DNA of 31,126 nucleotides from a virus: positions 1-31,126 of IMG/VR virus record IMGVR_UViG_3300028384_000877. One strand, given 5' to 3'. The position numbers and the translations under genes were made by a program. Below are positions 13,650-30,647 of the stretch, one piece after another. Each line of letters opens with the position of its first letter. The stretch's first letter is position 1. The notes below the pieces were generated by a model that saw only the letters and a list, made by a program, of their open reading frames with translations, was not told the origin of the DNA and did no database searches.

Positions 13650-14123
13650 ATGTTTGTATTAGATGATTTTTTAACTGATTTTCAGATTCAAAAAATCTAT
13701 AATAGAAACCTCCCCTATGATCATACCCTCTATCCGAAAGAGGAACTTGAATGCTTTTATCCTTTTTTTGATGAAGCAAAAAAACATTTTGATTTTTCAG
13801 AATGTATTGGTTATGAAGTCTGGAGACAACGCAATCCCCAGAATCTCGGTTGGCATTATGATCATGATGAAATTCTTCTTCAAACAGAGGATGTTTTTTC
13901 TTGGCCAATATGCACAATTGTTTACTACATAAGAGTATGTGATATTCTTGGTGGTAAACTTCTCTTTAGAGATGGAACGTCCATCAAACCGTTACAAAAT
14001 CGACTAGTTATTTTTGGTCCTGGTATTGAACATGCTGTTGATGAAATGTTTACGGTTGATGGACACCGAGATTCTATTCTCATAAATCCCTGGACATATG
14101 AGATTAAAAACCCCGTAGGATAA
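13650..14123 (+). CDS. 2OG-Fe(II) oxygenase, prolyl-4-hydroxylase-like
   Basis: I start this 157-residue protein at the ATG just after the zinc-ribbon stop. Its iron site is clear: His69-x-Asp71 in GWHYDHDE, and His128 in GPGIEHAV, with Arg140 (GHRDSILINPW) for 2-oxoglutarate. CTIVYYI and GGKLLF between them match the P4H-type core. It should hydroxylate a protein side chain or small molecule with O2 and 2OG. It is the third oxygenase in 4.5 kb. The family call is strong; the substrate is unknown. Confidence 0.8.
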   Translation: MFVLDDFLTDFQIQKIYNRNLPYDHTLYPKEELECFYPFFDEAKKHFDFSECIGYEVWRQRNPQNLGWHYDHDEILLQTEDVFSWPICTIVYYIRVCDILGGKLLFRDGTSIKPLQNRLVIFGPGIEHAVDEMFTVDGHRDSILINPWTYEIKNPVG

Positions 14124-14215
14124 GGGTTAAGCCTGCTGGTGCGGATGGGATATATCCCGCCTGGTTTCCAATTTCCAGTAAAAGAATTGGTGGCGAGCCT
14201 GCAACCCCCCTAAAG
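14124..14215 (+). other. Intergenic element with hairpins before an oxygenase gene
   Basis: The stretch contains GGGATATATCCC (a perfect palindrome) and CCAATT...AATTGG around an 11-base loop, flanked by two copies of GCCTGC. CTGGTG, CGCCTGGT and CCCCCCT motifs line up with the element at 13326-13399. It could be a structured 5' leader. No known RNA family is recognised. Confidence 0.4.
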
Positions 14216-14809
14216 ATGAAACCAAAGTACGAAGATTTTATAGGCCTTTATGAAGGAGCGGTAGATCCAGAGTTTTGTAATTGGATCTGTCGTTACATGG
14301 ATAACTCTACTCATGTTCTTCCAAGAAACTTCATGCAAGTAAAAGATCAACAGATCTGCTTTAGTGCATTTTCTCCACAAGAGAACAAGCAACTAATGGA
14401 AATGGTTGATCGTTGCCTCTTCGACTATGTTAGTGAGTATCCATATCTTTCTAATTTTAATTATGTTAGTTCTTTGACTCTAGTGCAAAAAACTGAACCA
14501 TGTCAAGGTTACCATCTCTTTCATGGTGAAAATCTAAACTGGGATGTTCAACACAGAACTCTCGCTTGGATGGTTTATTTAAATGATGTTAAGGAGGGTG
14601 GTGAAACTGAGTTTCAATATCAGAAACGAAGAGTTCGTCCCAAAAAAGGAACAGTTCTTATTTGGCCTGGAGGATTTACTCATCTCCATAGAGGCAACCC
14701 TCCCTTGAGTGGTAACAAGTACATTGCCACTGGTTGGTATCAAGGATCAATTGGTTTACGTGAAGTGTACACCGCTGGTATTAATGATAAAAAACAAAAC
14801 GAAGATTGA
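14216..14809 (+). CDS. 2OG-Fe(II) oxygenase, prolyl-hydroxylase-like
   Basis: This 197-residue protein matches the P4H-type core used by many phage oxygenases. GYHLFHGEN gives candidate ligands His103 and Glu105 (or His100), RTLAWMVYLND and GGETEFQYQKR follow, then GTVLIWPGGFTHLHRGNPP with His156 or His158. Lys168 in NKYIATGW is the probable 2OG anchor. An acidic HxE pair replaces the usual HxD. It could hydroxylate proline in a protein. It lies just before the glycan operon but is separated from it by a strong terminator. Confidence 0.82.
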   Translation: MKPKYEDFIGLYEGAVDPEFCNWICRYMDNSTHVLPRNFMQVKDQQICFSAFSPQENKQLMEMVDRCLFDYVSEYPYLSNFNYVSSLTLVQKTEPCQGYHLFHGENLNWDVQHRTLAWMVYLNDVKEGGETEFQYQKRRVRPKKGTVLIWPGGFTHLHRGNPPLSGNKYIATGWYQGSIGLREVYTAGINDKKQNED

Positions 14810-14813
14810 TTGG

Positions 14814-14838
14814 TTGGGTCTATTAAGACCCAATTTTT
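14814..14838 (+). terminator. Rho-independent terminator before the glycan operon
   Basis: TTGGGTCT (14814-14821) pairs perfectly with AGACCCAA (14826-14833) around ATTA, followed by five Ts. It starts 4 bases after the oxygenase stop and separates it from the glycan genes. Confidence 0.85.
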
Positions 14839-14848: not shown

Positions 14849-14882
14849 TTGCAGAAAACTCTTAGACATAATATAATAAATA
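14849..14882 (+). promoter_or_regulatory. Composite promoter of the glycan operon (TATAATAAATA)
   Basis: A perfect -10 TATAAT (14872-14877) lies 17 bases after a weak -35 TTGCAG (14849-14854). The same run continues into AATAAATA (14875-14882), one mismatch from the late promoter motif. The epimerase ATG is 22 bases further on. The operon could be read by both early and late transcription. Confidence 0.55.
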
Positions 14883-14904
14883 AGACGCAGTAAATTATTA
14901 CAAC

Positions 14905-15939
14905 ATGGCGCAACAAAAAACTGCACTGGTTCTCGGTGCTGGTGGTTTCATTGGAAGTCATATGGTTAAACGCCTGATCAGAGAAGGATATTGGGTCAGG
15001 GGTGTAGATATTAAATATCCAGAGTTCTCTGAGACGATGGCTCATGAGTTCGTTATTGGTGATCTTCGTAGTCATACTGTCGTTGAAGGTGTTCTCTCTG
15101 TCAACAATGGCACCTTTGATGAGATCTATCAGTTCGCTGCAGACATGGGTGGTGCAGGGTATATCTTTACTGATGAACACTCTGCAGACATTATGCATAA
15201 TTCTGCTAGTATTAATCTAAATATTTTGGATCGTCAGAAGAAACTGAATGATTTTCTTAGTGTAAACAAAACTAAGATTTTCTATAGTTCTTCTGCATGT
15301 ATGTACCCAGAACGTAATCAACTGGACCCTGATAACCCTGATTGTCGTGAAGAATCCGCATATCCAGCAGACCCAGACTCCGAATACGGATGGGAGAAAC
15401 TATTCTCCGAACGTGTATACTTTGCTTACAACAGGAACTATGATATTCCTGTTCGTGTTGCCCGTTATCATAACATCTTTGGTCCCGAAGGAACCTGGGA
15501 GGGAGGAAAGGAGAAAGCACCAGCTGCAATCTGCCGTAAGGTCGCCTATCTTCCTGAGACGGGTGGAGGCATCGAGGTGTGGGGAGACGGCTTACAGACT
15601 CGTTCCTTCCTGTTCATTGACGAATGCATTGAAGCAACTCGAAGACTGATGGACAGTGACTTTATGGGTCCTGTGAACATTGGATCTGAAGAAATGGTAC
15701 AGATCAATCAACTAGTTGACACTGCTGCCAAAGTTTCTGGTAAAGTAGTAACTAAGTTGCACAAACTTGATGCACCTTTGGGTGTTCGTGGACGTAACTC
15801 CAACAATGATCTCATTCGTGAGAAACTTGGTTGGGATTATTCTCAAACCCTTGAGGAAGGTATCCGTAAAACGTATGAGTGGATCTCTGCTCAAATCAAA
15901 AACCGTAAACTAGCTGAACGTGAATTGACCAATGTCTGA
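14905..15939 (+). CDS. GDP-mannose 3,5-epimerase-like sugar-nucleotide epimerase
   Basis: This 344-residue protein, the usual length, is an extended SDR that looks very close to GDP-mannose 3',5'-epimerase. That enzyme converts GDP-D-mannose to GDP-L-galactose (and GDP-L-gulose) in the cytosol. GAGGFIG (11-17) binds NAD. SSSACMYPE contains Cys132, and Tyr161 and Lys165 form the YxxxK pair. GGKEKAPAAICRK contains Lys204, equivalent to the second acid/base residue of the plant enzyme. WGDGLQTRSF, GVRGRNSNN and EKLGW are also typical. It is the first gene of the glycan operon; the next ATG overlaps its stop by 8 bases. Its product would be a donor for the GT10/GT11 enzymes downstream. Confidence 0.85.
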   Translation: MAQQKTALVLGAGGFIGSHMVKRLIREGYWVRGVDIKYPEFSETMAHEFVIGDLRSHTVVEGVLSVNNGTFDEIYQFAADMGGAGYIFTDEHSADIMHNSASINLNILDRQKKLNDFLSVNKTKIFYSSSACMYPERNQLDPDNPDCREESAYPADPDSEYGWEKLFSERVYFAYNRNYDIPVRVARYHNIFGPEGTWEGGKEKAPAAICRKVAYLPETGGGIEVWGDGLQTRSFLFIDECIEATRRLMDSDFMGPVNIGSEEMVQINQLVDTAAKVSGKVVTKLHKLDAPLGVRGRNSNNDLIREKLGWDYSQTLEEGIRKTYEWISAQIKNRKLAERELTNV

Positions 15940-16531
15940 AACTATTACTAAAGTACCCGATACAACTATTGTTCTCAGAAAATCTGAGATTCAAAACCTT
16001 GATGTCTCTGCACTAGAGAATGCATCTCTTAATCCGAATGACTGGCTGTCTGCTGGACAATCTGAGTATCGTCTCTATGCATATCTGTCTACTTGTTTCA
16101 ATGATTCTGTTATCCTTGACGTAGGTACTCGCGTTGGTGGATCTGCTCTTGCACTTTCTTATAATGAAAACAACCGTGTCATTAGTTATGATTTGGTTGA
16201 GCAAGGTGCATCTAAAATCGTAAAGGATAATATTGAATTTAAGATTCAAGACTTTCGTGAAGACGAAACTCTAAACTACGATGAGATTTCAATCATTATG
16301 ATTGATGTTGATCCTCATGATGGTATTCAAGAAGTTGAGATGATGGAATTCCTGAACGACAAGGAATGGAAAGGTATTATTCTTCTGGATGATATTGGTC
16401 CTGCTTGGCCTGAGGTTCAGGACATGTGGGATGCAATTGAGGAGCCCAAGATTGATGTGACTGAAGTTGGTCACATGAGTGGAACTGGACTGGTAAACTT
16501 TGGATCTAAGCACACTGTTGATTGGGAATGA
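15932..16531 (+). CDS. Class I SAM-dependent methyltransferase-like protein
   Basis: This 199-residue protein has a glycine-rich loop VILDVGTRVGGSALAL (60-75), an acidic strand end (VISYDLVEQ), and IIMIDVDPHDG and IILLDDIGP. These follow the Rossmann layout of small methyltransferases of the Methyltransf_24 kind. The loop is a loose match, so activity is not certain. Placed between two sugar-nucleotide enzymes with overlaps on both sides, it probably methylates a sugar. Confidence 0.65.
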   Translation: MSETITKVPDTTIVLRKSEIQNLDVSALENASLNPNDWLSAGQSEYRLYAYLSTCFNDSVILDVGTRVGGSALALSYNENNRVISYDLVEQGASKIVKDNIEFKIQDFREDETLNYDEISIIMIDVDPHDGIQEVEMMEFLNDKEWKGIILLDDIGPAWPEVQDMWDAIEEPKIDVTEVGHMSGTGLVNFGSKHTVDWE

Positions 16532-17376
16532 AAATTACTATTTTGGGGTCTTCTGGTCAGGTGGGTGCCTACCTGACTCAGTATTTCAAGACCAAAGGTC
16601 ATGATGTAATTGAGTTTGATAAAGTCAATGCAGACTGGCAGGATATGACTCGTATCCCCAATGTCAATCTGCAAGATGCTTTGAAGGATACGGATTTTTG
16701 TTTCTTTCTTGCATTTGATGTGGGTGGCTCTCACTACCTGAAAAAGTATCAACATACATTTAAATTCCTTGATAACAATGCAAGGATGATGTGTAATGCT
16801 TTCCAGTATCTTGAAAAGTATAAAGTTCCTTTTGTATTCGCCTCATCTCAGATGAGTAGCATGAGTTATTCTCCTTACGGAGTTATGAAGAGAGTTGGTG
16901 AACTATATACTGAGTCCCTGGGTGGCAAGATTGTTAAATTCTGGAATGTTTATGGTATCGAGAATGACATGGAGAAAGCCCACGTCATTACCGACTTCAT
17001 CGACAAGGGATTTAGGAACGGAGTCATCGACATGATGACAGATGGCACAGAACAACGAGAGTTTCTTTACGCAGAAGATTGTTGTGAAGCTCTTGAGGCA
17101 GTCATGCAAAATTATGATGACTTCACCTCTACTGACCCTCTTCATATTACTTCTTTTGTTAGTACATCTATTCTGGAAGTCGGAAAGATTATTCAGAATC
17201 TATTTGATGCTGACGGTAAAGAAGTCAAAGTCATTCCTGCGGAGTCGAAAGACACTGTTCAGAAAGATGCTCGCAACCAGGCGGATACCTTTATTACTAA
17301 GTGGTGGAAACCCAAGACTAGTATCGAAGAAGGTATTGCAAAAGTCTATCGAGAAATGAAACATTACCATGAGTAA
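16528..17376 (+). CDS. NAD-dependent epimerase/dehydratase (SDR) of a sugar nucleotide
   Basis: I start this 282-residue protein at the ATG overlapping the previous stop. GSSGQVG (7-13) is the NAD-binding loop, FASSQMSSMSYSPYG leads to the catalytic Tyr117-x3-Lys121 pair, and EQREFLYAEDCCEAL is typical of extended SDRs of sugar nucleotides. The substrate cannot be told. It could act after the epimerase, for example as a further epimerase or reductase, but I see no signature of GDP-fucose synthase. The start of the GT10 gene overlaps its stop. Confidence 0.75.
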   Translation: MKITILGSSGQVGAYLTQYFKTKGHDVIEFDKVNADWQDMTRIPNVNLQDALKDTDFCFFLAFDVGGSHYLKKYQHTFKFLDNNARMMCNAFQYLEKYKVPFVFASSQMSSMSYSPYGVMKRVGELYTESLGGKIVKFWNVYGIENDMEKAHVITDFIDKGFRNGVIDMMTDGTEQREFLYAEDCCEALEAVMQNYDDFTSTDPLHITSFVSTSILEVGKIIQNLFDADGKEVKVIPAESKDTVQKDARNQADTFITKWWKPKTSIEEGIAKVYREMKHYHE

Positions 17377-18316
17377 AGGATTTAAAAAATCGTTGACGAA
17401 ATCCCTAGGCAACGATACTTCTATTTTATCTCCAGATAAAAAGTTTCCAATTAACTTGATCTGCAATGATGATTTGGAACCATCTACATCTGCAAACAAC
17501 AGATCCGTTTATACCCGCTGGGTTCGTGACGGATCTGGATTTTGTAATTTGTATGTCAACCATAGAGCATTGGAAGTTCTAGAAGATACTAGTGATCTTC
17601 CTAAGTTCATTTGGTTGCTTGAGTCAAGAGAAATTATTCCAGACCAGTACAAATTCATTGAAGATAACTATGATTTTGTTGCTAGTCGTGTGGATGGGAT
17701 TTTTACTTGTGACCAAAGACTCACGCATGAGGCTGGTCCTGACGGTAAATTTCTTTATTGCCTCTCTAATGCTGCTCCTTGGGTCATGGATAGAGATATC
17801 TACGACAAGTACAAGCTCGTCTCAATGGTCGCATCTAACAAAGGATATACTCTGGGACACCAGCGTCGTCTCAAAGTAGTGCAGGAATACTTTAATAAGT
17901 ATGGTGGTGATGATCTTTTTGGTTGGGGACTTCCTCAGGAACTTCCTCTCAAAGAAAAGTCCAGAGCACTTGCAGACTACATGTTCTCCTTTGCTGTAGA
18001 GAATGCAAACTATCCCACGTATTTCACTGAGAAGTTGACCGATTGCTTTGCTTGTGGAACTATTCCCGTTTATTATGGTACGATAGGAGTTGCACAGTAC
18101 TTCAATCCTGAAGGAATCATTTTTCTTGATCAGAATCGACCATGGGAAAACATTCCCTGGGAAAAATTGACCCAAGAATATTACCTATCAAAGAAAGATG
18201 CTATTGTAGAAAACTTCAATATCGCTAAAGAGATGCGAGTTGCAGAAGACTACATGTATGCAAATTACTTATCACAATTAGATCCTATTAGAAATCAGAG
18301 GCCAGTAACAGTATGA
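17369..18316 (+). CDS. GT10-family glycosyltransferase (alpha-1,3-fucosyltransferase-like)
   Basis: This 315-residue protein has the GT10 C-terminal signature FSFAVENANYPTYFTEKL (206-223), then DCFACGTIPVYYG, preceded by SMVASNKGY...GHQRRLKVV. GT10 enzymes move L-fucose from GDP-fucose to a 3- or 4-hydroxyl of a sugar. There is no membrane anchor, so it is probably cytosolic. Because a GDP-L-galactose-forming epimerase opens the operon, the donor could be GDP-L-galactose instead of GDP-fucose. The family call is firm; the donor is inferred. Confidence 0.88.
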   Translation: MSKGFKKSLTKSLGNDTSILSPDKKFPINLICNDDLEPSTSANNRSVYTRWVRDGSGFCNLYVNHRALEVLEDTSDLPKFIWLLESREIIPDQYKFIEDNYDFVASRVDGIFTCDQRLTHEAGPDGKFLYCLSNAAPWVMDRDIYDKYKLVSMVASNKGYTLGHQRRLKVVQEYFNKYGGDDLFGWGLPQELPLKEKSRALADYMFSFAVENANYPTYFTEKLTDCFACGTIPVYYGTIGVAQYFNPEGIIFLDQNRPWENIPWEKLTQEYYLSKKDAIVENFNIAKEMRVAEDYMYANYLSQLDPIRNQRPVTV

Positions 18317-19113
18317 CAACTACAGTAGATAGAAAGGGTTGGGAAGCCGAAGATAAAATTGCAGATGAATACCTACGTGCTTGTACCGAAGCAGTAGAAG
18401 ATGATTCTGCTTTTGAAGTATTCAAATCCAATCCAGAGTATACAACTATTCTAGAACACGTTCTTAAAGATCAGGGTCAATCATACCTGAACATGTCTCG
18501 TGAGATGAACGAGGAAGCTTTTGAGGATAACCTCGCAGGTTTCAGGGAGAATGATCGGTATGGTTCTCCCAATACACAAGTTTATCCTGGTATTGAAGGA
18601 CAGATCTCCCCTACCACTTTACGTTACATCAAGAATACTTTTGAGATTGCTTTCATGGTGAATGAATCTCCTATTAGTCGTATTGTTGAAGTTGGTGGTG
18701 GATATGGCGGACTGTGTAAAGTTCTCAGTACTGTCTGTGAGTTTGATGAGTATATTCTGATTGACCTTCCAGAGGTCAGTGCTCTGCAAAGAAAGTACAT
18801 CGATCTGTTCCCAGATATCAAAGATAAGGTAAAATGTATTCCATGCACTGAGTACGAAGAGATTAAAGATATCGATCTCTTCATTAGCAATTATGCTTTG
18901 TCTGAGTGTAGTCTTGAAGTTCAGATGGAATACTATGATAAACTGGTTACAAATACTAAGTTTGCTTATCTCATCTACAATCTTGTCAACTTTAACGATT
19001 TCCACTATAATGATTTCATCGACAAGATGAAGGAAACATTTACCTTCGATGTTGGTAGAGACTATGAAAACACTGTCATTCTAGCTACAAAAAAAGATGA
19101 ATCGAATCCCTGA
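18313..19113 (+). CDS. Putative sugar O-methyltransferase
   Basis: This 266-residue protein has a clear SAM-binding loop, RIVEVGGGYGGLCKVL (123-138). DEYILIDLPEVSALQRKY and FISNYALSECS follow as the later Rossmann strands. I recall this order from putative sugar O-methyltransferases of surface-polysaccharide clusters. It overlaps GT10 by 4 bases and the NadE-like gene by 17, which suggests coordinated expression. It could cap the glycan by methylating a sugar hydroxyl. Confidence 0.72.
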   Translation: MTTTVDRKGWEAEDKIADEYLRACTEAVEDDSAFEVFKSNPEYTTILEHVLKDQGQSYLNMSREMNEEAFEDNLAGFRENDRYGSPNTQVYPGIEGQISPTTLRYIKNTFEIAFMVNESPISRIVEVGGGYGGLCKVLSTVCEFDEYILIDLPEVSALQRKYIDLFPDIKDKVKCIPCTEYEEIKDIDLFISNYALSECSLEVQMEYYDKLVTNTKFAYLIYNLVNFNDFHYNDFIDKMKETFTFDVGRDYENTVILATKKDESNP

Positions 19114-19864
19114 TTATATGGAATTGACATGCGATATTGTCGCATGGATCTGTGATTACTGTTATAAACACTCCATCAAGTCTTTGGTTGTTGGAGTGTC
19201 TGGTGGTATCGACTCTGCAGTTTCTTCTACTCTTGCAGCTAAGACTGGTCTTCCTGTCTATGCTGTGGGTATGCCAATCAATCAAAAGAAAGAACAGGAG
19301 ACTCTATCTGATGCTCATCTGTTTTGGTTGGAAAAGAACTATCCTAACGTGACTGTTCTTAAGGCAGATCTTTCCGAAGTATTTGGAAAGTTTATCGAGA
19401 CTATTGGTAATGATTGTGGTGTTGAATACTCCATCAATAAAATGGCAGGTGCAAACAGTCGGTCTCGATTTCGTATGGTAACCCTGTATCAGATCGCTGC
19501 CTCTGTTGAAGGTATCGTGGTTGGTACAGGTAACAAGGTGGAAGACTATGGAGTTGGTTTTTACACTAAGTATGGTGACGGTGGCGTTGATATTGCTCCG
19601 ATTGCTGATCTTTATAAAACAGAAGTAAGAGAACTTGGACGATTCAATGGAGTAATTCCTGAAATCGTTGAAGCAAAACCCACTGATGGTCTGTGGGATG
19701 ATGGACGTACTGATGAGGACCAGATCGGTGCATCCTATGAAGATTTAGAATATGCTATGGAACATGGCACTGGTCCTGCAGTTCGTATCCTTCATGATTT
19801 CAACTGTAAGAACAAGCACAAGATGCTTCCTATCCCTACATTTAATTTGGTTACTAAGAAATGA
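19097..19864 (+). CDS. nadE: NadE-like NH3-dependent NAD synthetase or amide ligase
   Basis: This 255-residue protein is an N-type ATP pyrophosphatase of the NadE family. The P-loop is SGGIDS (35-40), and GTGNKVEDYGVGFYTKYGDG plus VDIAPIADLYKTEVRELG and TDGLWDDGRTDEDQIGA are the typical later motifs. NadE adenylates the carboxylate of nicotinic acid adenine dinucleotide and amidates it with ammonia to give NAD+. It has no glutaminase domain, but a nitrilase-like protein is coded three genes on. In this setting it may make NAD+ or may amidate a sugar uronate. The family is firm; the substrate is open. Confidence 0.85.
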   Translation: MNRIPDYMELTCDIVAWICDYCYKHSIKSLVVGVSGGIDSAVSSTLAAKTGLPVYAVGMPINQKKEQETLSDAHLFWLEKNYPNVTVLKADLSEVFGKFIETIGNDCGVEYSINKMAGANSRSRFRMVTLYQIAASVEGIVVGTGNKVEDYGVGFYTKYGDGGVDIAPIADLYKTEVRELGRFNGVIPEIVEAKPTDGLWDDGRTDEDQIGASYEDLEYAMEHGTGPAVRILHDFNCKNKHKMLPIPTFNLVTKK

Positions 19865-21012
19865 GAATCGGTGTCATTGGTGCAGGTCGTCTAGGGATCT
19901 GCTTTGCTCTTCTTTGTGAGGAGAGTGGACATTCTGTAATTGTTTCTGACGTGCAATCAAAATACGTCAGTCAACTTAACAATCGTGAGATCTTCAGTAA
20001 TGAACCTGAAGTCGAAGATCTTTTGATGAGATCAGAGAACTTACGTGCTACTACAAGTAACCAGGAAGTTATTCGTAGTTCGGATGTAATCTTTACCTTC
20101 GTTCCTACACCATCTCTTTCTGATGGCAGTTATGACTGTTCATGTGTTGATATGGTTGTAGAAGATCTTTTCAATTCACCAGATCTTCAGGATAAAAGTT
20201 TTGTTATTGGATCTACAGTCAATCCTGGGTATAGTGATACTGTTCAGGATCGATTAAAAGGTAGAGGCATTGATGTCTTCTACAACCCAGAGTTCATTGC
20301 ACAAGGAACTATCATTCGGGACATGAGAACCGCTGATATGATTCTCTGTGGTGGTGAAGATCCTAGAGGGTTTGCTGAGATTCAAATGATCTATGAGGAT
20401 ATTCAGGATTCTGAGGTTCACTTCTATCCCATGTCTCGCAAAGCTGCAGAGATTACTAAGATTGGCGTAAACTGTTTTCTTACATATAAGATCAGTTATG
20501 CTAACATGATGGGTCAGATTCTATACAATTCTGGATGTGGAGACGAGATTGACAATGTTTTGGATGCCGTTGGAGACGACACCAGAGTCGGTGCTAAATA
20601 TTTGCGTTACGGATTAGGCTTCGGTGGTCCTTGTTTGCCCCGAGACAATCGTGCATTGGGTCACTATGCTCGGACTGTTGGTCTTGAGTATAGTCTTCCT
20701 GATGTTACGGATGATTTCAACGATGCACATGCAAACTTTATTAAACGATATTGTATCGAACAGAATGTAGACAATCTTCCTTTCTTTATTGAGAGTATCG
20801 CTTTCAAGAAAGGTTCTGATATGACTGTAGAGAGTCCACGATTCTTGCTGGTTGAAGACCTTTTAAAGGATGGATATACTGTTTATGTTCAAGAGATTGA
20901 AGATGTTATCGATCATCATGAAGATGAATTGATTGATCTTTATGGAGACAATATCATCTTCGTTAAGAACCCTGCAGAGATTCATGAACCAGTTTGGAGG
21001 ATTGACTTTTGA
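19861..21012 (+). CDS. UDP-glucose/GDP-mannose 6-dehydrogenase family enzyme
   Basis: This 383-residue protein begins with the NAD-binding MRIGVIGAGRLG. It has YNPEFIAQGTIIRDM (141-155), AAEITKIGVNCFLTYKISYANM (195-216) with Lys200 and Asn204, and GFGGPCLPRD (253-262) with the catalytic Cys258. The family oxidises C6 of a nucleotide sugar twice, giving a uronic acid. Its ATG overlaps the stop of the NadE-like gene, and the next gene overlaps its 3' end. A uronic acid carboxylate next to a NadE-like amide ligase suggests a uronamide product. The sugar is not known. Confidence 0.88.
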   Translation: MRIGVIGAGRLGICFALLCEESGHSVIVSDVQSKYVSQLNNREIFSNEPEVEDLLMRSENLRATTSNQEVIRSSDVIFTFVPTPSLSDGSYDCSCVDMVVEDLFNSPDLQDKSFVIGSTVNPGYSDTVQDRLKGRGIDVFYNPEFIAQGTIIRDMRTADMILCGGEDPRGFAEIQMIYEDIQDSEVHFYPMSRKAAEITKIGVNCFLTYKISYANMMGQILYNSGCGDEIDNVLDAVGDDTRVGAKYLRYGLGFGGPCLPRDNRALGHYARTVGLEYSLPDVTDDFNDAHANFIKRYCIEQNVDNLPFFIESIAFKKGSDMTVESPRFLLVEDLLKDGYTVYVQEIEDVIDHHEDELIDLYGDNIIFVKNPAEIHEPVWRIDF

Positions 21013-21869
21013 CAATCAGTTATAATCGCCTAGGTAGCAACGGACGACTAGGTAATCAAATGTTTCAGTATGCCTCTTTGCGAGGCATCGCTGCTTATAA
21101 TGGATATGATTGGATGATTCCTCCTGATGATACTAATCATCGGGATAATTATGGTTTGTTTGAAACCTTTGAAATGGTTCACTGCAAGCCAGAGAATTTG
21201 GGAATCACTAACTTTCCTAACGTAGGAGAGTCTACACATGCCTTTGATGATAAATTATATTATACAAAGGACAACGTAAATATCGACGCATATTTACAGT
21301 GTGAAGATTATTTCTTACATATCGTCGATCACATCCATGAAGATTTTACCTTCAAGTCTGATTACAAGGATCCTTGTATTGATGTGGTTAATGGTATTGA
21401 TAATGCCCCCATTTTCCTACATATTAGACAATCCGATAACATTGGACGAGAAGAGTTTCATCCAATTCTACCGTTATCTTATTATGAGGAAGCGCTGAGT
21501 CACTTCCCCAAAGATACTCCATGCTTTGTTTTGACAGACGATATTGACTGGTGTAAACAACAGTCATTCTTTGATGATGATCGATTCATGTTCAATGAAA
21601 GCAATGGTAGATATTCTTATCAGACTATTGATGGTACTGGTAAGATGCAGAACACTCTTCTGCCTCAGGTTGATTTGTGTCTGATGAGTTTGTGTACTGG
21701 TGGTATTATTGCAAACAGTTCCTTCAGCTGGTGGGGAGCATGGTTGCAGAATGATCGTGGAAAAATCATTGCTCCTAATCCAGAGAAGTGGTTTGGGTCT
21801 GCTATGACTCACCTAGATACTTCTATGATCGTTCCTGCACGTTGGGAAACTTTGGATTGGAGTAAGTGA
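21009..21869 (+). CDS. GT11-family glycosyltransferase (alpha-1,2-fucosyltransferase-like), first copy
   Basis: This 286-residue protein has the GT11 motifs GRLGNQMFQYA (12-22), DDIDWCK and SSFSWWGAWLQND. The start is TTG at 21009, supported by GGAGG at 20996-21000, 8 bases upstream; I see no usable ATG. It differs from the other two copies at the donor-site motif: HIRQSD (138-143) replaces HVRRGD, with Gln for the second Arg. It also lacks the insertion present in the other two. Donor is GDP-fucose in known members, possibly GDP-L-galactose here. No membrane anchor. Confidence 0.85.
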   Translation: MTISYNRLGSNGRLGNQMFQYASLRGIAAYNGYDWMIPPDDTNHRDNYGLFETFEMVHCKPENLGITNFPNVGESTHAFDDKLYYTKDNVNIDAYLQCEDYFLHIVDHIHEDFTFKSDYKDPCIDVVNGIDNAPIFLHIRQSDNIGREEFHPILPLSYYEEALSHFPKDTPCFVLTDDIDWCKQQSFFDDDRFMFNESNGRYSYQTIDGTGKMQNTLLPQVDLCLMSLCTGGIIANSSFSWWGAWLQNDRGKIIAPNPEKWFGSAMTHLDTSMIVPARWETLDWSK

Positions 21870-22729
21870 TGAGGATTGCAGGAGCACAAATTCCTGTCGG
21901 ATTAGACATTCAGCGGAATAAAAGAGAGATTCTCAAAGCAATCGATTGGGCAAAAGAAAATGAAGTTGATCATCTTTTGACACCAGAAGGATCTCTTTCT
22001 GGATATCAGAATGGATGGCAACCTAAAGAGGAAGAAATTAGAGAAGCTCTTAATGAAATTCTAGAATTCCAGAAAGGAATTGGTCTTCATTTGGGGACCA
22101 TGTTTAGAGAAAAATTATCTGACTGGGACATAACAGATCGTAATGAGATTAGACACTACGATAAACTTGGTGAACTAAGTGCCGTAACTTATAAAACACA
22201 TTGTATCCCACATGATAGGTGTATACCTAGGTATGATGATACGGAACCACTTGCATATTTTGAAGTGGAACCAGATGTAACAGCATTAGGAATGATTTGC
22301 AATGATATGTGGGGTTCAGCTGAAGAAGATCACGTATCTTTTTGTGATAATTATCTTCTAGATGAGAATGTTCCACTTATATTTCACGCAACAAATGGTT
22401 TGAAGTGGAATGTAAAGGATAAAAGACAGAAAATTTTTAGTAATTATAGTGAAGCATTCTTGGGGATGGTTGCTTTCAAAAGTCAATCAACTATTTTGAC
22501 TGTAGATTCCTGTGTGAATTGGAACTGGGATGGCGATGAGAGTAAGATCGATGAGTGTATCACTTCCAGTCCTAGTGGTGTTATAAATTATTTGGGGTGG
22601 CAAACTAACGTCCCAAGACAAGGTAGACAGTTCTTCTATTGTGATGTAGACTTGAATATGAAAGAGTCATATCAAAATTATGGTAGAGAAATGTCCAAAA
22701 CATATCCATATGTGAATTTTAATCTTTGA
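21869..22729 (+). CDS. Nitrilase-superfamily (carbon-nitrogen hydrolase) protein
   Basis: This 286-residue protein starts at the ATG overlapping the previous stop (GTG at 21866 is possible). It has the nitrilase catalytic triad: Glu40 in TPEGSLSG, Lys109 in VTYKTHCIP and Cys144 in GMICNDMWG. This superfamily includes the glutaminase domains that feed ammonia to NAD synthetases as well as amidases. Since the NadE-like gene has no such domain, this may be its separate ammonia donor. It could also hydrolyse an amide on its own. The triad is clear; the pairing is inferred. Confidence 0.8.
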   Translation: MRIAGAQIPVGLDIQRNKREILKAIDWAKENEVDHLLTPEGSLSGYQNGWQPKEEEIREALNEILEFQKGIGLHLGTMFREKLSDWDITDRNEIRHYDKLGELSAVTYKTHCIPHDRCIPRYDDTEPLAYFEVEPDVTALGMICNDMWGSAEEDHVSFCDNYLLDENVPLIFHATNGLKWNVKDKRQKIFSNYSEAFLGMVAFKSQSTILTVDSCVNWNWDGDESKIDECITSSPSGVINYLGWQTNVPRQGRQFFYCDVDLNMKESYQNYGREMSKTYPYVNFNL

Positions 22730-22732
22730 GTT

Positions 22733-23629
22733 ATGGCTATTACATTTAAGGGACTTGGTAATGAAGGTCGTCTGGGAAACCAGATGTTTCAATATGCTTT
22801 TGTTCGTGGAGTTGCGGACAACAGAGGATTTGATTGGTTCGTTCCTGGACCAAATGCAGATAGACTTGATAACTATGGTCTATTTGATTGCTTTGAATTA
22901 TTCAACTGCGACCTAGTAGAGAATACTGGAGAGTATTTTATTCCCAGGAAGGTAGAATACCGTGATATGCATTTCAATGAACAGATTTTCAATGAGTGCG
23001 AGGATAATACCGATTTCTCAGGCAACTTTCAGACCGAACGTTACTTTGAGAAGATCAGTGCGTCTTTGCGTGAGGATTTCACTTTTAAAAAGGCGTACCT
23101 GGAACCGTGTCAAGAGTTTATTGATTCTCTTGGTGGACGTGATGAGTGTATCTTTTTGCACGTTCGTAGAGGTAATCCAAACCTTACTGGGCGTAGAGGG
23201 GAGAAGTGGTCTTATCAGATGGTGCAAGAGTATCACCCGCTCTGCAAAGCTGACTATTATGTACGGGCGCTCCAAGAGTTCCCCGAAGATAAACAAGTCG
23301 TAGTTGTGTCTGACACTATTGATTGGTGTAAACAACAACCATGGTTGCAAGGTGATCGATTCCAGTTCTCAGATTCTTCTTATGAAGAGTTTGGAGACGG
23401 TGCCTCAGTACCTTATATTGATCTTTGCCTGATGAGTCTTTGTGGTGGTGCAATCATCGCTAACTCTTCCCTGTCTTGGTGGGGAGCGTGGTTGCAGAAC
23501 GATGCAGGAAAGGTGGTTGTACCTGATCCCTGGTTTGGTCCTGCATATGAACACTATGATATGAAGGATATGATTCCAAAGAGATGGGTCAAACTTCACA
23601 ATGATCCAACGCCTGTGACTCCCGAATGA
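22733..23629 (+). CDS. GT11-family glycosyltransferase, second copy
   Basis: This 298-residue protein has GRLGNQMFQYA (12-22), the donor motif HVRRGN (143-148), DTIDWCKQQPW and SSLSWWGAWLQND. It shares with the third copy an insertion after the donor motif (KWSYQMVQEYHP), which the first copy lacks, so these two are the closer pair. The motifs imply transfer of a GDP-L-sugar, fucose in known enzymes, to a 2-hydroxyl. It starts 3 bases after the nitrilase-like gene and overlaps the next gene by 4 bases. Confidence 0.87.
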   Translation: MAITFKGLGNEGRLGNQMFQYAFVRGVADNRGFDWFVPGPNADRLDNYGLFDCFELFNCDLVENTGEYFIPRKVEYRDMHFNEQIFNECEDNTDFSGNFQTERYFEKISASLREDFTFKKAYLEPCQEFIDSLGGRDECIFLHVRRGNPNLTGRRGEKWSYQMVQEYHPLCKADYYVRALQEFPEDKQVVVVSDTIDWCKQQPWLQGDRFQFSDSSYEEFGDGASVPYIDLCLMSLCGGAIIANSSLSWWGAWLQNDAGKVVVPDPWFGPAYEHYDMKDMIPKRWVKLHNDPTPVTPE

Positions 23630-24462
23630 AAGACCTAACATACCTATTGCCTTGTCGAATCGAGACAGATGATCGTCTTCGTAACGTAATTACATCAGTA
23701 TCGTATCTACTTAAGAACTTTCCAGAGGCAAAAGTTCTGATCAAAGAAGTTGATACCAAATCACAATTCATCGAGTTTGCTCTTCCTCAGATCAAAAAGT
23801 ATGTTGGTGACATTGGTCAACTAAAGCATAGTTTTGAGAAGAGTGATGAAAAATTCTTTCACAAAACAAGAATTCTAAATGATCTATGTGTCGCAGCTGA
23901 CACTTCAATCATCTATAATCATGATGTAGATGTAGTTTTACCAAAGAATAGTCATGAACTTGCTTACCAAGGAATTACACAAGAAGGCTCTGATGCTGTT
24001 TATCCTTTTGGATGCGGGATCTATCAGTGGGCTGTTAACTATTCCGACGACCTGTTAGATAAGTTTCTTTCCTCTCACGATGGTACAGACTTTGACCTGA
24101 GTGTTCTTGATAACAGTAAACAACGCATCCCATCTTCTATTGGGTGGGGACAAATGATCAAGAAAGCTGCACAAGTCTCTGCTGGTATGTGGAATGAAGA
24201 GTTCATTTCATGGGGTGCGGAAGACTGTGAGTTCTATTATCGACTCAATCTTTTTGGGTTTAAGGTAGGCAGAGTTATTGATGACATCTATCATTTTGAA
24301 CATGGTAGAACTTTTAACTCACACTATCACAATCCCAAGTTCCAAGACAATGATCGACTGTGGAATTGGATTCGTACTCAAGACAAAGAAAGTCTTACTC
24401 AATATTATTCAAAACTAGAATACATTAAACGTCGGGGAGAAGAACTAAATGCTAGCCTTTAA
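23626..24462 (+). CDS. Glycosyltransferase, GT-A fold with GT7-like C-terminal motif
   Basis: This 278-residue protein starts MKDLTYLLPCRIETDDR and carries a DxD-type motif in NHDVDVVL (Asp100-Val-Asp102) for metal and nucleotide sugar. WGAEDCEFYYRLNLFGFKVG (196-215) is like the C-terminal galactosyltransferase motif of GT7. Such enzymes use UDP-activated hexoses. It lies between two GT11 genes and overlaps both by a few bases. The donor may be UDP-galactose, UDP-glucose or a modified UDP sugar made by the operon. Confidence 0.75.
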   Translation: MKDLTYLLPCRIETDDRLRNVITSVSYLLKNFPEAKVLIKEVDTKSQFIEFALPQIKKYVGDIGQLKHSFEKSDEKFFHKTRILNDLCVAADTSIIYNHDVDVVLPKNSHELAYQGITQEGSDAVYPFGCGIYQWAVNYSDDLLDKFLSSHDGTDFDLSVLDNSKQRIPSSIGWGQMIKKAAQVSAGMWNEEFISWGAEDCEFYYRLNLFGFKVGRVIDDIYHFEHGRTFNSHYHNPKFQDNDRLWNWIRTQDKESLTQYYSKLEYIKRRGEELNASL

Positions 24463-25306
24463 TCAACTTGGAAACTTAGGAAGACTGGGTAACCAGATGT
24501 TCCAGTATGCAGCAGTCAGAGGTATTGCTGCAATGAGAGGATATCAGTTTGGTATTCCTCCACACGATGCAAAACGTGTTGATAACTACAGTCTTGGTAG
24601 AGCATTTAAGTTAGAATCTGTTGGTCCTTCTAACTTGCATGTCCTTGATCGTGGACATGCTCCAGTGGTTGTCGAAAAACATTTTCACTTCGATGAAGAA
24701 CTACATAGAATGTGTCCGAACGACGTTAGTTTGTTTGGATTTTTTCAGTCGGAGAAATACTTCGCCAACATTAAGGATGAGATTCTAAGAGATTTTACTT
24801 TCCATGATTCAATTCTGGATCCCTGCAAAGAGATGGTCGATTCGCTGGATCAAGCGCCTCTCTTTCTTCACGTTCGTCGGGGTGATCCTAACCTTGTCGA
24901 TGCTAGGGGATTTAAGTGGTCGTACACGCAATGTTCGTCGCAACATCCACCACAACCGCTCTCCTATTACGAGAAAGCTCTGAAATATTTTGATGATGAT
25001 CAACCAGTAGTAGTCTGTTCTGACTCACCAGAATGGGTCAAGGAACAAGAGTTCTTTGCTGATGATAGGTTCTTGATCTCTGAACCCCAAGACAAGTATC
25101 CTGATGGATCCTGGGAACCTTTCGTGGACCTCTGCATTATGAGTCTATGTTCTGGTGCAATCATTGCTAACTCATCTTTATCTTGGTGGGGAGCATATCT
25201 TCAGAACAATCGCGGCACTGTTGTTGCTCCTGAGATGTGGTTTGGACCAGACTATAAGGACAAAGACACTTCAGATCTTTATGTGACAGGATGGATCAGA
25301 ACTTAA
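24449..25306 (+). CDS. GT11-family glycosyltransferase, third copy
   Basis: This 285-residue protein has GRLGNQMFQYA (11-21), the full donor motif HVRRGDPN (141-148) and SSLSWWGAYLQNN. It shares the KWSY insertion with the second copy. All GT11 key residues look intact, so it is expected to be active with a GDP-L-sugar donor. It overlaps the preceding GT by 14 bases and the oxygenase by 16. Three GT11s in one operon suggest several different linkages or repeated residues. Confidence 0.87.
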   Translation: MLAFNQLGNLGRLGNQMFQYAAVRGIAAMRGYQFGIPPHDAKRVDNYSLGRAFKLESVGPSNLHVLDRGHAPVVVEKHFHFDEELHRMCPNDVSLFGFFQSEKYFANIKDEILRDFTFHDSILDPCKEMVDSLDQAPLFLHVRRGDPNLVDARGFKWSYTQCSSQHPPQPLSYYEKALKYFDDDQPVVVCSDSPEWVKEQEFFADDRFLISEPQDKYPDGSWEPFVDLCIMSLCSGAIIANSSLSWWGAYLQNNRGTVVAPEMWFGPDYKDKDTSDLYVTGWIRT

Positions 25307-25812
25307 TTGTTGTTGATAATTTTTTAGACAACCCAGATTTTATAAGGCAAGTTGCACTTAAATTAGACTATAGTAATATTCAGGAAACTGTTCCTGGATG
25401 TAGGAGTACCGTTGCTCTTGGTGGAGATTTGTTTGATGAAGTTGATACTAAATTTCAACAAATTTTCAATTCTAAAATTAAGTGGTATCATGGAGCCGAT
25501 TCGTTTTATATCCAATCTTGTACAGAGGAAACGGAGACTTGGGTTCATGTAGATAACTGTAGTGATTGGGCTGCTGTCCTTTACTTAACGCCATATCCCG
25601 AGTTGGAATCAGGGACAGGAATTTATCATAAAGATGAAGATAATGAATGGGAAATGAACATCGCCGTAGGTAATGTCTACAACAGATTGATTGCATATAG
25701 AGGGAAATCGTTGTATCATAGGAGTATGGTTCCTGGATTCGGGAACTCTCTAGAAACTAGCCGACTAACACAAGTATTCTTTTTTGACTTAGAACCCAAT
25801 GGACAAGAATAA
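25291..25812 (+). CDS. 2OG-Fe(II) oxygenase, DUF6445-like, inside the glycan operon
   Basis: This 173-residue protein has a complete 2OG oxygenase site: His86-x-Asp88 in WVHVDNC, His143 in SLYHRSM and Arg158 in SRLTQVFFFD. VLYLTP and GTGIYHK lie between. I recall this layout for DUF6445 proteins, which often accompany bacterial and phage glycosyltransferases. It overlaps the GT11 before it and the GT25 after it, so it clearly belongs to the operon. It may hydroxylate the glycan acceptor, a protein or a sugar. The oxygenase call is strong; the family name is less sure. Confidence 0.78.
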   Translation: MDQNLIVVDNFLDNPDFIRQVALKLDYSNIQETVPGCRSTVALGGDLFDEVDTKFQQIFNSKIKWYHGADSFYIQSCTEETETWVHVDNCSDWAAVLYLTPYPELESGTGIYHKDEDNEWEMNIAVGNVYNRLIAYRGKSLYHRSMVPGFGNSLETSRLTQVFFFDLEPNGQE

Positions 25813-26599
25813 ATCTACTTATAAACTGAAGGGGTTTGGTCCTCTCTATGTCATCAACCTTGATGGTCAACCAGAACGTTGGCAATGGATGCAGGAACAA
25901 CTTGATTATTGGGAGATCAAAGATTATACTAGGATCTCTGCTTACGATGGCAGACCTGAGGTTGGTGACGATCTTAGTGACATCATCCAAGGTAGATACC
26001 CCGATAGCATGAGTCCTGGTGAGATTGGCTGTGTCACTTCTCACTTGAAAGCTATCAAACACTTCTACGAAGAGACTGATGATCCTTATGCAATCATTAT
26101 GGAAGATGATTGTGACATCAGTACTGCTAGATACTGGACATTCACCTGGAGACAATTCATCTCTAGGATCCCATATGATTGGGATGTTTGCCAGGTTGCA
26201 ATCATTTGTCCTGGTGAATTGCATGTAAACATCCACCGTAGATTTGTCAATGACTTCTCTACTGCATGTTATGCCATCACAAGGCACCATGCTAAGAAGG
26301 TCCTTGAGCATCATGTACGTGGAGACAAATATAAACTGGACAATGGAGTCAAACCACGTCCAGTTGCAGACGATCTTATCTACAACTCTGGAGTATCATA
26401 TGCCGCTCCTATCTTCTTGTATAAGATTGAATTGGGTTCTTCCATTCACCCAGACCATATTGAGATCTTCCACAGGGGATCTCATGATGGTCTGAGAAAT
26501 CTCTGGGAGACCCGTGGCAGTGATCTAACCATTGACAAGATCACTGAGTACGATCCTTACCTTGGACGTGTTGCAGGAAGAGATAAAACTCCTGCTTGA
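25799..26599 (+). CDS. GT25-family glycosyltransferase
   Basis: This 266-residue protein has LYVINLDGQPERWQWM near the N-terminus, GEIGCVTSHLKAIKHF (74-89) and YAIIMEDDCDI (97-107), the DxD-like metal site. These are the hallmarks of GT25, which includes LPS galactosyltransferases and the collagen hydroxylysine galactosyltransferases. It is the last gene of the operon. The overlap with an oxygenase gene is notable because collagen GT25 enzymes act after a hydroxylase. Donor and acceptor are unknown. Its TGA lies in the next promoter's -35. Confidence 0.85.
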   Translation: MDKNKSTYKLKGFGPLYVINLDGQPERWQWMQEQLDYWEIKDYTRISAYDGRPEVGDDLSDIIQGRYPDSMSPGEIGCVTSHLKAIKHFYEETDDPYAIIMEDDCDISTARYWTFTWRQFISRIPYDWDVCQVAIICPGELHVNIHRRFVNDFSTACYAITRHHAKKVLEHHVRGDKYKLDNGVKPRPVADDLIYNSGVSYAAPIFLYKIELGSSIHPDHIEIFHRGSHDGLRNLWETRGSDLTIDKITEYDPYLGRVAGRDKTPA

Positions 26600-27231: not shown

Positions 27232-27390
27232 ATGAAAGCAATCGCACTTGCCGCACTGGCATTGTCTGCACTGGCGACACCTGCCCTTGCAGGACCCTAT
27301 GTAGAGTCTAAGCACGAATTCAAAGGTACTGATGAAGACTACAGCAAGGCTGTACATCAGGCGGCACCAAGTACAAGTTCTGATAACTGA
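27232..27390 (+). pseudogene. Second barrel-type gene with an internal deletion
   Basis: The open frame codes 52 residues: a signal peptide (MKAIALAALALSALATPALA), then GPYVESKHEFKGTDEDYSKAVHQ, resembling the start of the barrel protein at 26750. The frame then ends oddly. In another frame the last bases read GGTKYKF and stop at 27381-27383, the kind of Phe-ended strand a barrel protein should have. So the middle appears to be missing and the frame broken near 27350-27362. Similar breaks occur in pstS and psbA downstream. A real short secreted peptide is possible but less likely. Confidence 0.55.
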
Positions 27391-27393
27391 TAA

Positions 27394-28252
27394 ATGAAAC
27401 TCAAAGCAATCGCAGCTGCCGCCTTGGCAGCACCCCTGATGGTAGCTTGCGCTTCCACTGAGAATAAAGAAGTCAGTAAAGAGCCATACAAATTGAATGG
27501 CGCTGGTGCTTCTTTCCCTGCAATGCTCTACAATAATATGTTGCAGGACCTTGCTGAAAAGACTGGCAACCAAGTCAACTATCAAGCAGTTGGTAGTGGT
27601 GCTGGTGTTCGTCAGTTCAAAGCAAAGACCGTTGACTTCGGTGCCAGCGATGGTGCAACTGGTCTACCTTCGGTTGTGCTGATAAGCGCATCGCTACTGT
27701 CCATCGTTCTGATGGTTCTGGTACTACCAAAGGTTTCACGAACTCCCTGTCGGCATTCTCCCCTGAGTGGAAGAAGACTGTAGGTACAGGTAAGTCTGTG
27801 AAGTGGCCTGTTGGTGTTGGATCTAAAGGTAACAGCGGTGTCGCTGCTACTATCACCAATACCCCTGGTTCCATTGGTTATGTGAATTATGGTTATGTGA
27901 AGGGTGACCTTCAACAGGTTTCTATCCAAAACCGTGCAGGTAATTATGTCACCGCTTCTGCTTCGACTGCATCTGCTGGTCTTGGTGAGATCGTTCTTGA
28001 TGATCAACTGCGTGGTGCTGACGCTAACCCTGCTGGTGCCAATGCTTATCCTATTGTCTCCTTGACTTGGATCCTGGCATATCCTGAGTATGAGAAGAAT
28101 GGTGATGTGAAGGACATGCTTCGCTGGATGCTGACACCTACTCAGCAACAGAAGGCAGACTCCCTTGGTTATGTTCCTCTTCCTGAGTCACTTCGTCAGA
28201 AAGCACTTGCTGTGGTTTTTCACCAAAACAGATCGAGGGCAACAAAATTTAG
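27394..28252 (+). pseudogene. pstS: Phosphate-binding protein PstS, interrupted by a deletion and frameshift
   Basis: The first part has a lipoprotein-like signal (residues 1-19, ending MVACAS), then LNGAGASFPAMLYNNM and GSGAGVRQF...DFGASDG, the phosphate-binding start of PstS. The second part, in another frame from about 27657, begins NWSTFGCADKRIATVHRSDG and includes SDGSGTT, GNSGVAA and GSIGYVNYGYV. By comparison with E. coli PstS, some 55 residues are lost near 27651-27656, with a frame change. The 3' end is also unclear: QIEGNKI and TAG at 28250-28252 lie in a different frame from the rest. Normal PstS captures periplasmic phosphate for the host transporter. As read here it cannot make a full protein. 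Confidence 0.75.
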
Positions 28253-28263
28253 GAGACTGCACC

Positions 28264-28383
28264 TCATTATATCAATTGGTGGAAAGACTCCAATATAGAT
28301 TGGAGGGATTGGAAAATGAACACCTACAAATCTTATCAAAGCTACATCAACTAGAATCCAAATTAGACAATAATTATTCGTGA
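28264..28383 (+). CDS. Small coiled-coil protein lacking an obvious start codon
   Basis: The frame reads SLYQLVERLQYRLEGLENEH and continues to a TGA at 28383, about 40 residues of heptad-like helix. AGGAGA at 28251-28256 is a good ribosome binding site, and an ATG would be expected near 28261-28264, but none is there. The first in-frame TTG is at 28276. Either a non-ATG start is used or the start was lost together with the damage at the end of pstS. Function unknown. Confidence 0.4.
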   Translation, partial: SLYQLVERLQYRLEGLENEHLQILSKLHQLESKLDNNYS

Positions 28384-28406
28384 GGTTTGGTATTCAACAC
28401 AAATTT

Positions 28407-28434
28407 TTGATAAGTTGAGTTATTTGGATATAAT
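28407..28434 (+). promoter_or_regulatory. Sigma70-type promoter, TTGATA-N16-TATAAT
   Basis: TTGATA (28407-28412) and a perfect TATAAT (28429-28434) are 16 bases apart, and the next ATG lies 26 bases downstream of the -10. Confidence 0.55.
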
Positions 28435-28459
28435 TAGTATGTAATATCTAAAGTTCAGT

Positions 28460-28615
28460 ATGCCGAGAGGACCTCTTGACAAAAATGTGATTCTATCGCA
28501 TATCTATAAACTCAAGCACCAATTAGATCATGAAGAGATTCCCAACGGTGAAAAATGGAAAGCTCATGAATACTTATCAAAGGTATTAGATAAAGTGATG
28601 GAATTTGGATATTGA
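28460..28615 (+). CDS. Small conserved-type cyanophage protein
   Basis: This 51-residue protein (MPRGPLDKNVILSHIYKLKH at its start) is helical and charged, and ends SKVLDKVMEFGY. I recall the MxRGPLDK start from small proteins in many cyanomyoviruses, usually near the photosynthesis genes. No function is known to me. A good promoter lies upstream, and its TGA forms part of the hli promoter's -35 box. Confidence 0.65.
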   Translation: MPRGPLDKNVILSHIYKLKHQLDHEEIPNGEKWKAHEYLSKVLDKVMEFGY

Positions 28616-28640
28616 CAAAGACTTTACATTACTATATAAT
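28612..28640 (+). promoter_or_regulatory. Consensus early promoter of the hli cluster, TTGACA-N17-TATAAT
   Basis: Both hexamers are perfect (28612-28617 and 28635-28640) with the ideal 17-base spacing. The host sigma70-type polymerase should read it strongly, early in infection. The -35 contains the stop codon of the preceding gene. Confidence 0.85.
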
Positions 28641-28667
28641 TATAGTTGTAAATCTTTACAAAACCAA

Positions 28668-28886
28668 ATGACTGTTACTACTGAAGATGGTGGAAGGCAA
28701 AATATGTTTGCCAGAGAACCACGTATGTATGTCTCCAAGACTGACGCTGAGCGTTATGGTTATGAGACCTATGCAGAACGTGCAGAGAAACTGAATGGAC
28801 GCACTGCTATGCTTGGATTTGTTGCTGCTGTTATCTCTTATGCTTTCAGTGGTAGCGTATTTTTCTTTGGTGCTTTCGGATTCTGA
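28668..28886 (+). CDS. hli: High-light-inducible protein (Hli)
   Basis: I start this 72-residue protein at the ATG at 28668; upstream codons in the frame overlap the promoter. ERAEKLNGRTAMLGF (37-51) is the chlorophyll-binding ExxNGRxAMxGF motif of one-helix Hli proteins. The single membrane helix runs on to about residue 68. Hli proteins bind chlorophyll and carotenoid in thylakoids and protect photosystem II during light stress and repair. It is first in an overlapping set of small membrane protein genes leading to psbA. Confidence 0.93.
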   Translation: MTVTTEDGGRQNMFAREPRMYVSKTDAERYGYETYAERAEKLNGRTAMLGFVAAVISYAFSGSVFFFGAFGF

Positions 28887-29101
28887 TGACTGAACTTTTG
28901 ACTTATTATGTGATTGCGAGTCTTCTTTTTATTGGAGCACCAGCAATCTTTTTTATCATTGTCTTCATGCCTGCCCTACAAAACACCAAGGGTAGAATGG
29001 TTGGATACAAAGACCATAAAACATATGGCGATTCTTCAATCTATGAAAATTCGCCAAGTGACCAAACAAACTTTCATCTTATTTTAGGAGAAAACACATG
29101 A
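28886..29101 (+). CDS. Small membrane protein between two hli genes
   Basis: This 71-residue protein has one long hydrophobic segment (LLTYYVIASLLFIGAPAIFF, residues 4-23, continuing to about 31). A polar tail containing KGRMVGYKDHKTYG follows. It is not an Hli and not a photosystem subunit I can name. Its ATG overlaps the hli stop, and its stop overlaps the next ATG, so it is translated with the hli pair and probably acts in the thylakoid. Confidence 0.6.
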   Translation: MTELLTYYVIASLLFIGAPAIFFIIVFMPALQNTKGRMVGYKDHKTYGDSSIYENSPSDQTNFHLILGENT

Positions 29102-29205
29102 ACGAAAACGCAGAACGTATTAATGGATTGGCAGCAATGCTGGGTATCATTGCAGCAATGGGTGCTTATGCTGTAACAGGACAAATCATCCCAGGTATCT
29201 GGTGA
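29098..29205 (+). CDS. hli: Short high-light-inducible protein
   Basis: This 35-residue protein contains ERINGLAAMLGIIAAMG, a shortened Hli motif (ExxNGxxAMxG, with Leu where Arg is usual), then a helix and a QIIPGIW end. Short Hli proteins of this form are common in cyanophages and bind pigment in the thylakoid as dimers. TTAGGAG provides a good ribosome binding site, and its TGA overlaps the next ATG. Confidence 0.88.
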   Translation: MNENAERINGLAAMLGIIAAMGAYAVTGQIIPGIW

Positions 29206-29321: not shown

Positions 29322-29356
29322 TTATACATAATAATATTGATTTAAATTTACGGAAA

Positions 29357-29503: not shown

Positions 29504-29520
29504 TAATACTCAACTTTTTT
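29493..29520 (+). terminator. Rho-independent terminator of the hli cluster
   Basis: AAGTTGAGTA (29493-29502) and TACTCAACTT (29507-29516) form a perfect 10-pair stem with a GTAA loop, then a T-run. The stem includes the end of the upstream gene, so a translating ribosome could affect folding. Confidence 0.9.
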
Positions 29521-29522
29521 TA

Positions 29523-30646: not shown

Positions 30647-30647
30647 T

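Follow-up and report, generated by a model that had tools for sequence, protein, structure and literature searches.

T4-like cyanophages carry large sugar clusters, and it has been a standing question since 2010 whether these have a function or are mere packaging filler; in that year, Sullivan et al. found it unclear if genes of this kind do anything or serve as "stuffer DNA" (PMC3037559). The same question is raised by a locus in the IMG/VR virus record IMGVR_UViG_3300028384_000877, of which the 31,126-nucleotide stretch at positions 1–31,126 (hereafter the window) was analyzed: here, 14 genes at 14905–26599 form a run coding for enzymes of sugar-nucleotide and glycan metabolism. The window comes from a T4-like cyanophage, i.e., a virus of marine cyanobacteria, and the run is a real, conserved glycan cassette belonging to the known cyanophage "lipopolysaccharide (LPS) cluster" class; like the clusters of the S-SSM7 class, it lies near hli/psbA and tRNA genes (PMC3037559). 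Judged by its conservation in relatives, it looks like a working pathway rather than filler DNA.

The cultured Synechococcus phage Sf-FS3 (PV340856, isolated on Synechococcus WH8102) carries the same operon, with all 14 genes at 99.7% identity over 12.5 kb, which makes the question testable; over the operon it is essentially the same phage, most of its differences from the window being located near pstS and psbA. The "LPS gene cluster" of S-SSM7 and S-SSM6a (Sullivan et al. 2010) has 13 of the 14 genes in unchanged order and in the same hli/psbA neighborhood but is without the nitrilase-type gene, and its proteins are 63–84% identical; S-SCSM2R harbors a close variant. In an IMG/VR sample made up of the 80 best loci for the cassette's NadE homologue, all 12 core genes occur in 23, with order and strand identical in every one (23/23); grouping them at 95% NadE gene identity leaves 15 clusters, i.e., about 15 independent lineages. 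In pairwise comparisons with ten relatives, the ratio of nonsynonymous to synonymous substitution (dN/dS) is low for all of the genes wherever dS is unsaturated, with point values mostly 0.03–0.25, these being simple counting estimates from single pairs, of which the comparisons with Sf-FS3 and the relative L009 contain few changes. Catalytic motifs are retained across the relatives and the reading frames are intact. Hence, although the S-SSM7, S-SM2 and P-SSM2 LPS clusters had been suggested as possible non-functional stuffer DNA for headful packaging (PMC3037559), this reading is highly improbable here, as low dN/dS in all genes, kept motifs and an order fixed across divergent phages argue for function. 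An earlier reading of the window, made from its letters alone (the sequence-only reading), had taken the run for a whole pathway and not a single modifying enzyme, and had named scattered or inactive genes in relatives as the outcome that would speak against this; the fixed order, purifying selection and retained motifs point the other way.

The run comprises 14 open reading frames, all on the plus strand and all where the sequence-only reading had placed them (Table 1). With the preferred start codons, successive junctions measure −8, −4, −8, −4, −17, −4, −4, −1, +3, −4, −14, −16 and −14 nucleotides, i.e., 12 of 13 overlap, as had been described, and the lone gap of 3 nucleotides lies at 22730–22732; since short overlaps are common elsewhere in the genome, they are by themselves unremarkable. 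Family assignment drew on Pfam, NCBIfam and PDB sequence searches with the operon proteins. A curated Pfam cut-off is passed by 11 of the 14 proteins (both short-chain dehydrogenases/reductases (SDRs), the GT10, NadE, nucleoside diphosphate (NDP)-sugar dehydrogenase, three GT11, GT7C-like, DUF6445 and GT25 proteins) and the sugar O-methyltransferase clears that of NCBIfam TIGR04371, whereas the first methyltransferase and the nitrilase pass no family cut-off and are assigned through their predicted folds, the latter also through its E-K-C triad. The fold predicted for the first methyltransferase resembles those of class-I enzymes, including O-methyltransferases. When the GT7C-like, GT25 and GT11 (c) proteins were compared with PDB sequences, nothing useful emerged, the GT7C-like protein having no match. 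The families proposed beforehand thus held up, including two sugar-nucleotide SDRs, but the specific identity of the first as a GDP-mannose 3,5-epimerase (GME) had been missed, and a wcaG RNA, an upstream 2-oxoglutarate (2OG) oxygenase and the linkage of NadE to the dehydrogenase had likewise been overlooked.

The composite promoter that had been proposed for the cassette is present and conserved: of 53 distinct regions upstream of the epimerase gene, 31 contain its late-type motif, NTAAATA (1.7 expected), and all sampled members of the canonical cassette have it. The proposed upstream terminator stood only in part; the hairpin is present in the window but is not conserved in relatives, and it was accordingly rejected as a conserved operon boundary. 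In variant clusters, the region upstream of the GME gene instead has a terminator-like hairpin containing a TTGACA −35 element, with a T-run and then a −10 element after it, such that terminator and promoter are combined. In Sf-FS3, the late-type motif is found in front of several structural genes and in front of no replication gene from a hand-picked set of 23. The notion of exclusively late expression was tempered, for the motif overlaps a sigma-70-type −10 element, and in the variant clusters the promoter is sigma-70-like and the late motif is missing. Further upstream, the wcaG RNA is also found in the relatives L011, L012, L016 and L020, though not at threshold in L027, L031 and L088, and the S-SCSM2R annotation has it at the corresponding position; Weinberg et al. 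associated this RNA with exopolysaccharide or high-light genes (PMC2864571).

The best overall explanation, to which we assign a probability of roughly 0.55, is that the cassette acts as a single unit that makes its own sugar donors and assembles a short glycan for the host envelope or the virion; the computations themselves establish the unit, its gene order, the constraint on it, the enzyme families and the conservation of the promoter, and the substrates, amidation step, acceptor and biological role that we infer are as follows. The cassette would be transcribed as one functional unit from the conserved sigma-70-type and T4-late-type promoter, with its special sugar donors made in the cytosol. 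The GT10 and the three GT11 enzymes would transfer L-galactose (or host L-fucose), while the 6-dehydrogenase would oxidize an NDP-hexose to a uronate, the carboxylate of which the NadE-type ligase may turn into an amide, optionally aided by an ammonia-releasing nitrilase-type amidase. The methyltransferases and 2OG oxygenases would provide further decoration and the GT7C-like and GT25 enzymes would complete the oligosaccharide. Its target might be a host envelope glycolipid remodeled on the cytosolic face or, alternatively, virion proteins, and we lean slightly toward the envelope.

No initiating transferase, flippase or polymerase of the kind found in a Wzx/Wzy-type O-antigen locus is seen among the operon families, and when the whole genome of Sf-FS3 was scanned by simple hydropathy, no flippase or polymerase candidates emerged, the scan recovering only PsbD, PsbA and other-frame reading frames inside large structural genes. 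The prior claim that the run lacks a flippase, polymerase or other membrane protein thus holds for the operon and, through the scan and annotation of Sf-FS3, for the whole genome; the glycan must therefore be completed in the cytosol or rely on host export. Surface polysaccharide loci typically hold GT10, GT11 and GT25 enzymes along with sugar O-methyltransferases, and a cassette that remodels the LPS or exopolysaccharide of the host cell, e.g., against superinfection or grazing, has close to an even chance of being the right picture. Host-surface remodeling has been proposed for P-SSM2 (reviewed in PMC2984593), and the association of wcaG RNAs with exopolysaccharide genes (PMC2864571) points in the same direction, but host machinery would be needed, since the operon has neither an initiating transferase nor a flippase or polymerase and Sf-FS3 offers no multi-transmembrane candidate. 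Decoration of virion proteins (tail fibers or capsid) is a more doubtful prospect: the fusion of a T4-late-type motif to the promoter, the failure to find membrane export genes, the tail-fiber genes within the same window and the overlap of the GT25 gene with a 2OG oxygenase gene, which recalls hydroxylate-then-glycosylate systems, are all consistent with it, but the sigma-70-type −10 element means that expression is not necessarily late only, and a collagen-type version finds no collagen-like repeats in Sf-FS3. Collagen-type hydroxylation and glycosylation of tail fibers, as in mimivirus L230, was rejected for want of any Pfam Collagen match in that genome.

With respect to the sugar donors, the first gene product is similar over its full length to the plant GDP-mannose 3,5-epimerase, and the catalytic Cys, Tyr/Lys, Lys and Arg motifs of this family are present in nearly all of 77 relatives; it is hence predicted to be a GME making GDP-L-galactose. 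The usual donor of GT10 and GT11 enzymes is GDP-L-fucose. GDP-L-galactose from the GME is a plausible donor source for the fucosyltransferase-type enzymes of this cassette, which would then use it in place of the fucose derivative; on the other side of the ledger, they may instead draw on host GDP-fucose.

The NadE homologue meets the NAD+ synthetase family profile, with conserved ATP-loop and active-site residues. Its genomic context nevertheless suggests a different or additional substrate besides deamido-NAD/nicotinic acid mononucleotide: an NDP-sugar 6-dehydrogenase gene lies 0–1.7 kb away in 79 of the 80 loci, the contig ending in the remaining one, and at the level of clusters the pairing is invariable (49/49). 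The paired dehydrogenases represent two lineages that are about 26–28% identical. Phylogenetically, the cyanophage NadEs group in a single clade, and that of the pelagiphage HTVC008M, whose gene also overlaps a dehydrogenase gene (by 4 nucleotides), falls among cellular SAR11-type sequences; it is a long branch, the exact placement of which is less certain than the fact that it lies outside the cyanophage clade, and this exclusion implies that phages acquired NadE at least twice. That the two genes pair repeatedly suggests that their reactions are coupled, the simplest case being the formation of a uronate and its amidation. It is thus a tentative proposal, with odds a little short of even, that marine phages at least twice recruited an NAD+ synthetase beside an NDP-sugar 6-dehydrogenase to amidate NDP-uronates, the enzyme being unrelated to the asparagine-synthase (WbpS) type. 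WbpS of Porphyromonas gingivalis is a uronamide amidotransferase that would effect the same change within a sugar pathway, turning a uronate into a uronamide, but it is of the asparagine-synthase type (PMC7468200), whereas the phage protein is a NadE; we found no literature on NadE-type uronamide synthesis. If the pair does make uronamides, a phage gene routinely annotated as an NAD synthetase would belong to glycan synthesis, and the counting of such "auxiliary metabolic genes" would change.

Several observations weigh against amidation. The phage NadE retains nearly all residues of cellular NAD synthetases, with consistent differences only at internal positions 151, 167 and 232, and the HTVC008M protein has the cellular state at all three, leaving room for plain NAD synthesis. 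The nearest cellular NadEs (short forms from SAR11, flavobacteria and marine Thermoplasmatota) are 47–56% identical, share nearly the same conserved residues and look like ordinary single-copy NAD synthetases, although the cellular scan used motifs conserved in the phage proteins and is therefore biased to similar active sites. Accordingly, NadE might be a genuine NAD+ synthetase supplying NAD+ for the dehydrogenase or for infection generally, in which case no uronamide would be made and the rest of the glycan pathway would stand. The nearly unchanged active site fits this, as do the nearest cellular homologues, which, unlike the phage proteins, have no link to a 6-dehydrogenase, the single strong NadE in each of six tested genomes, and the distribution in Pelagibacterales of the short form and a 550–580-amino-acid glutamine-dependent form in different genomes, which is expected of interchangeable NAD synthetases. 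Yet this option is unlikely, for the dehydrogenase reduces NAD+ without consuming it, and a strict pairing with two dehydrogenase lineages lacks an obvious reason. A cellular NadE beside a dehydrogenase, considered as the source of the module, was found in none of the 80 best cellular loci.

The nitrilase is an optional accessory, perhaps one that furnishes ammonia. This protein has no Pfam match and no PDB sequence match, but its E40-K109-C144 triad is invariant and its predicted fold is that of the nitrilase superfamily, matching amidases and the glutaminase part of glutamine-dependent NAD synthetases. It is present in 7 of the 23 full cassettes, always at one position, and this patchiness led us to reject an obligatory glutaminase of NadE in the manner of a split glutamine-dependent NAD synthetase. 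Its absence from most cassettes, together with the rarity of a nearby NadE among its phage relatives, which occur mostly in other neighborhoods and often in tandem, further counts against the proposed amidation. The operon nitrilases group closely in the tree but form no single clean clade. Related nitrilase-superfamily genes in other marine phages are often tandem paralogues with a DUF6445-like gene nearby, and one in P-SSM2 (251481–252398) adjoins late-transcription and replication genes.

Beyond the canonical cassette, the sugar clusters of P-TIM68, S-SM2, S-SCSM1 and Bellamy resemble it in having GME and/or the NadE–dehydrogenase pair plus glycosyltransferases, but differ in gene sets and orders (e.g., carbamoyltransferase, transketolase-like genes and asparagine synthase).

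Table 1. Features of the glycan cassette and its upstream region (window coordinates)
Feature	Coordinates	Strand	Basis or remark
wcaG cis-regulatory RNA (RF01761), leader of the upstream 2OG oxygenase	14107..14204	+	81.4 bits, gathering 42, E 5.7e-14
2OG-Fe(II) oxygenase gene (phrog_61), directly upstream, possibly same module	14216..14809	+	kept upstream of cassette in most relatives
Intrinsic-terminator-like hairpin, between oxygenase and operon	14812..14835	+	seen in this sequence
Composite promoter: weak TTGCAG −35, TATAAT −10 overlapping T4-like late motif ATAAATA	14849..14884	+	
GME, predicted product GDP-L-galactose/GDP-L-gulose	14905..15939	+	PDB 2c59, E 9.3e-87
Class-I S-adenosylmethionine methyltransferase, O-methyltransferase-like fold	15932..16531	+	sub-threshold FtsJ; predicted fold, pLDDT 89
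Second sugar-nucleotide SDR	16528..17376	+	Pfam; YxxxK kept in relatives
GT10 fucosyltransferase-type glycosyltransferase	17369..18316	+	34 bits, cut-off 23.9; alpha1,3-fucosyltransferase 2nzw, E 2.5e-7
NanM-type putative sugar O-methyltransferase	18313..19113	+	TIGR04371, 65.7 bits, cut-off 44
NadE homologue (ligase family using ATP and ammonia), proposed to amidate an NDP-uronate	19097..19864	+	
NDP-sugar 6-dehydrogenase (UDPG/MGDP family)	19861..21012	+	catalytic Cys kept
GT11 glycosyltransferase (a), TTG start	21009..21869	+	HIRQSD variant of HxRRxD motif
Nitrilase-superfamily amidase, optional member	21869..22729	+	predicted fold and E40-K109-C144
GT11 glycosyltransferase (b)	22733..23629	+	Pfam
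GT7C-like glycosyltransferase with DxD	23626..24462	+	24.6 bits, cut-off 23
GT11 glycosyltransferase (c)	24449..25306	+	canonical HVRRGD
DUF6445 protein, 2OG-Fe(II) oxygenase motif HxD...H...R, optional	25291..25812	+	17/23 full cassettes
GT25 glycosyltransferase	25799..26599	+	49.7 bits, cut-off 24; motifs kept in relatives

Several features elsewhere in the window and in Sf-FS3 may also be recorded. Compared with Sf-FS3, the window is missing approximately 205, 146, 110 and 143 bases at four sites near pstS and psbA (27362–30709), leaving both genes broken; this is probably an assembly collapse, though possibly real. A PhotoRC-II RNA (RF01717) lies upstream of psbA at 29577–29672. The gene at 7916–8425, assigned to the phrog_447 "NAD synthetase" family, resembles a GIY-YIG endonuclease and has matches to homing-endonuclease PHROGs as well, such that the family annotation looks wrong. 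On the minus strand, a subtilase-like protein (1392–3608; Peptidase_S8, E 2e-11) is coded among the tail-fiber genes. Sf-FS3 has a second sugar cluster at 98597–107185, situated between the baseplate/tail-fiber genes and the neck genes, with carbamoyltransferases, a cytidylyltransferase, a kinase, an isomerase and an SDR, and more than 12 2OG-Fe(II) oxygenase genes are annotated across its genome.

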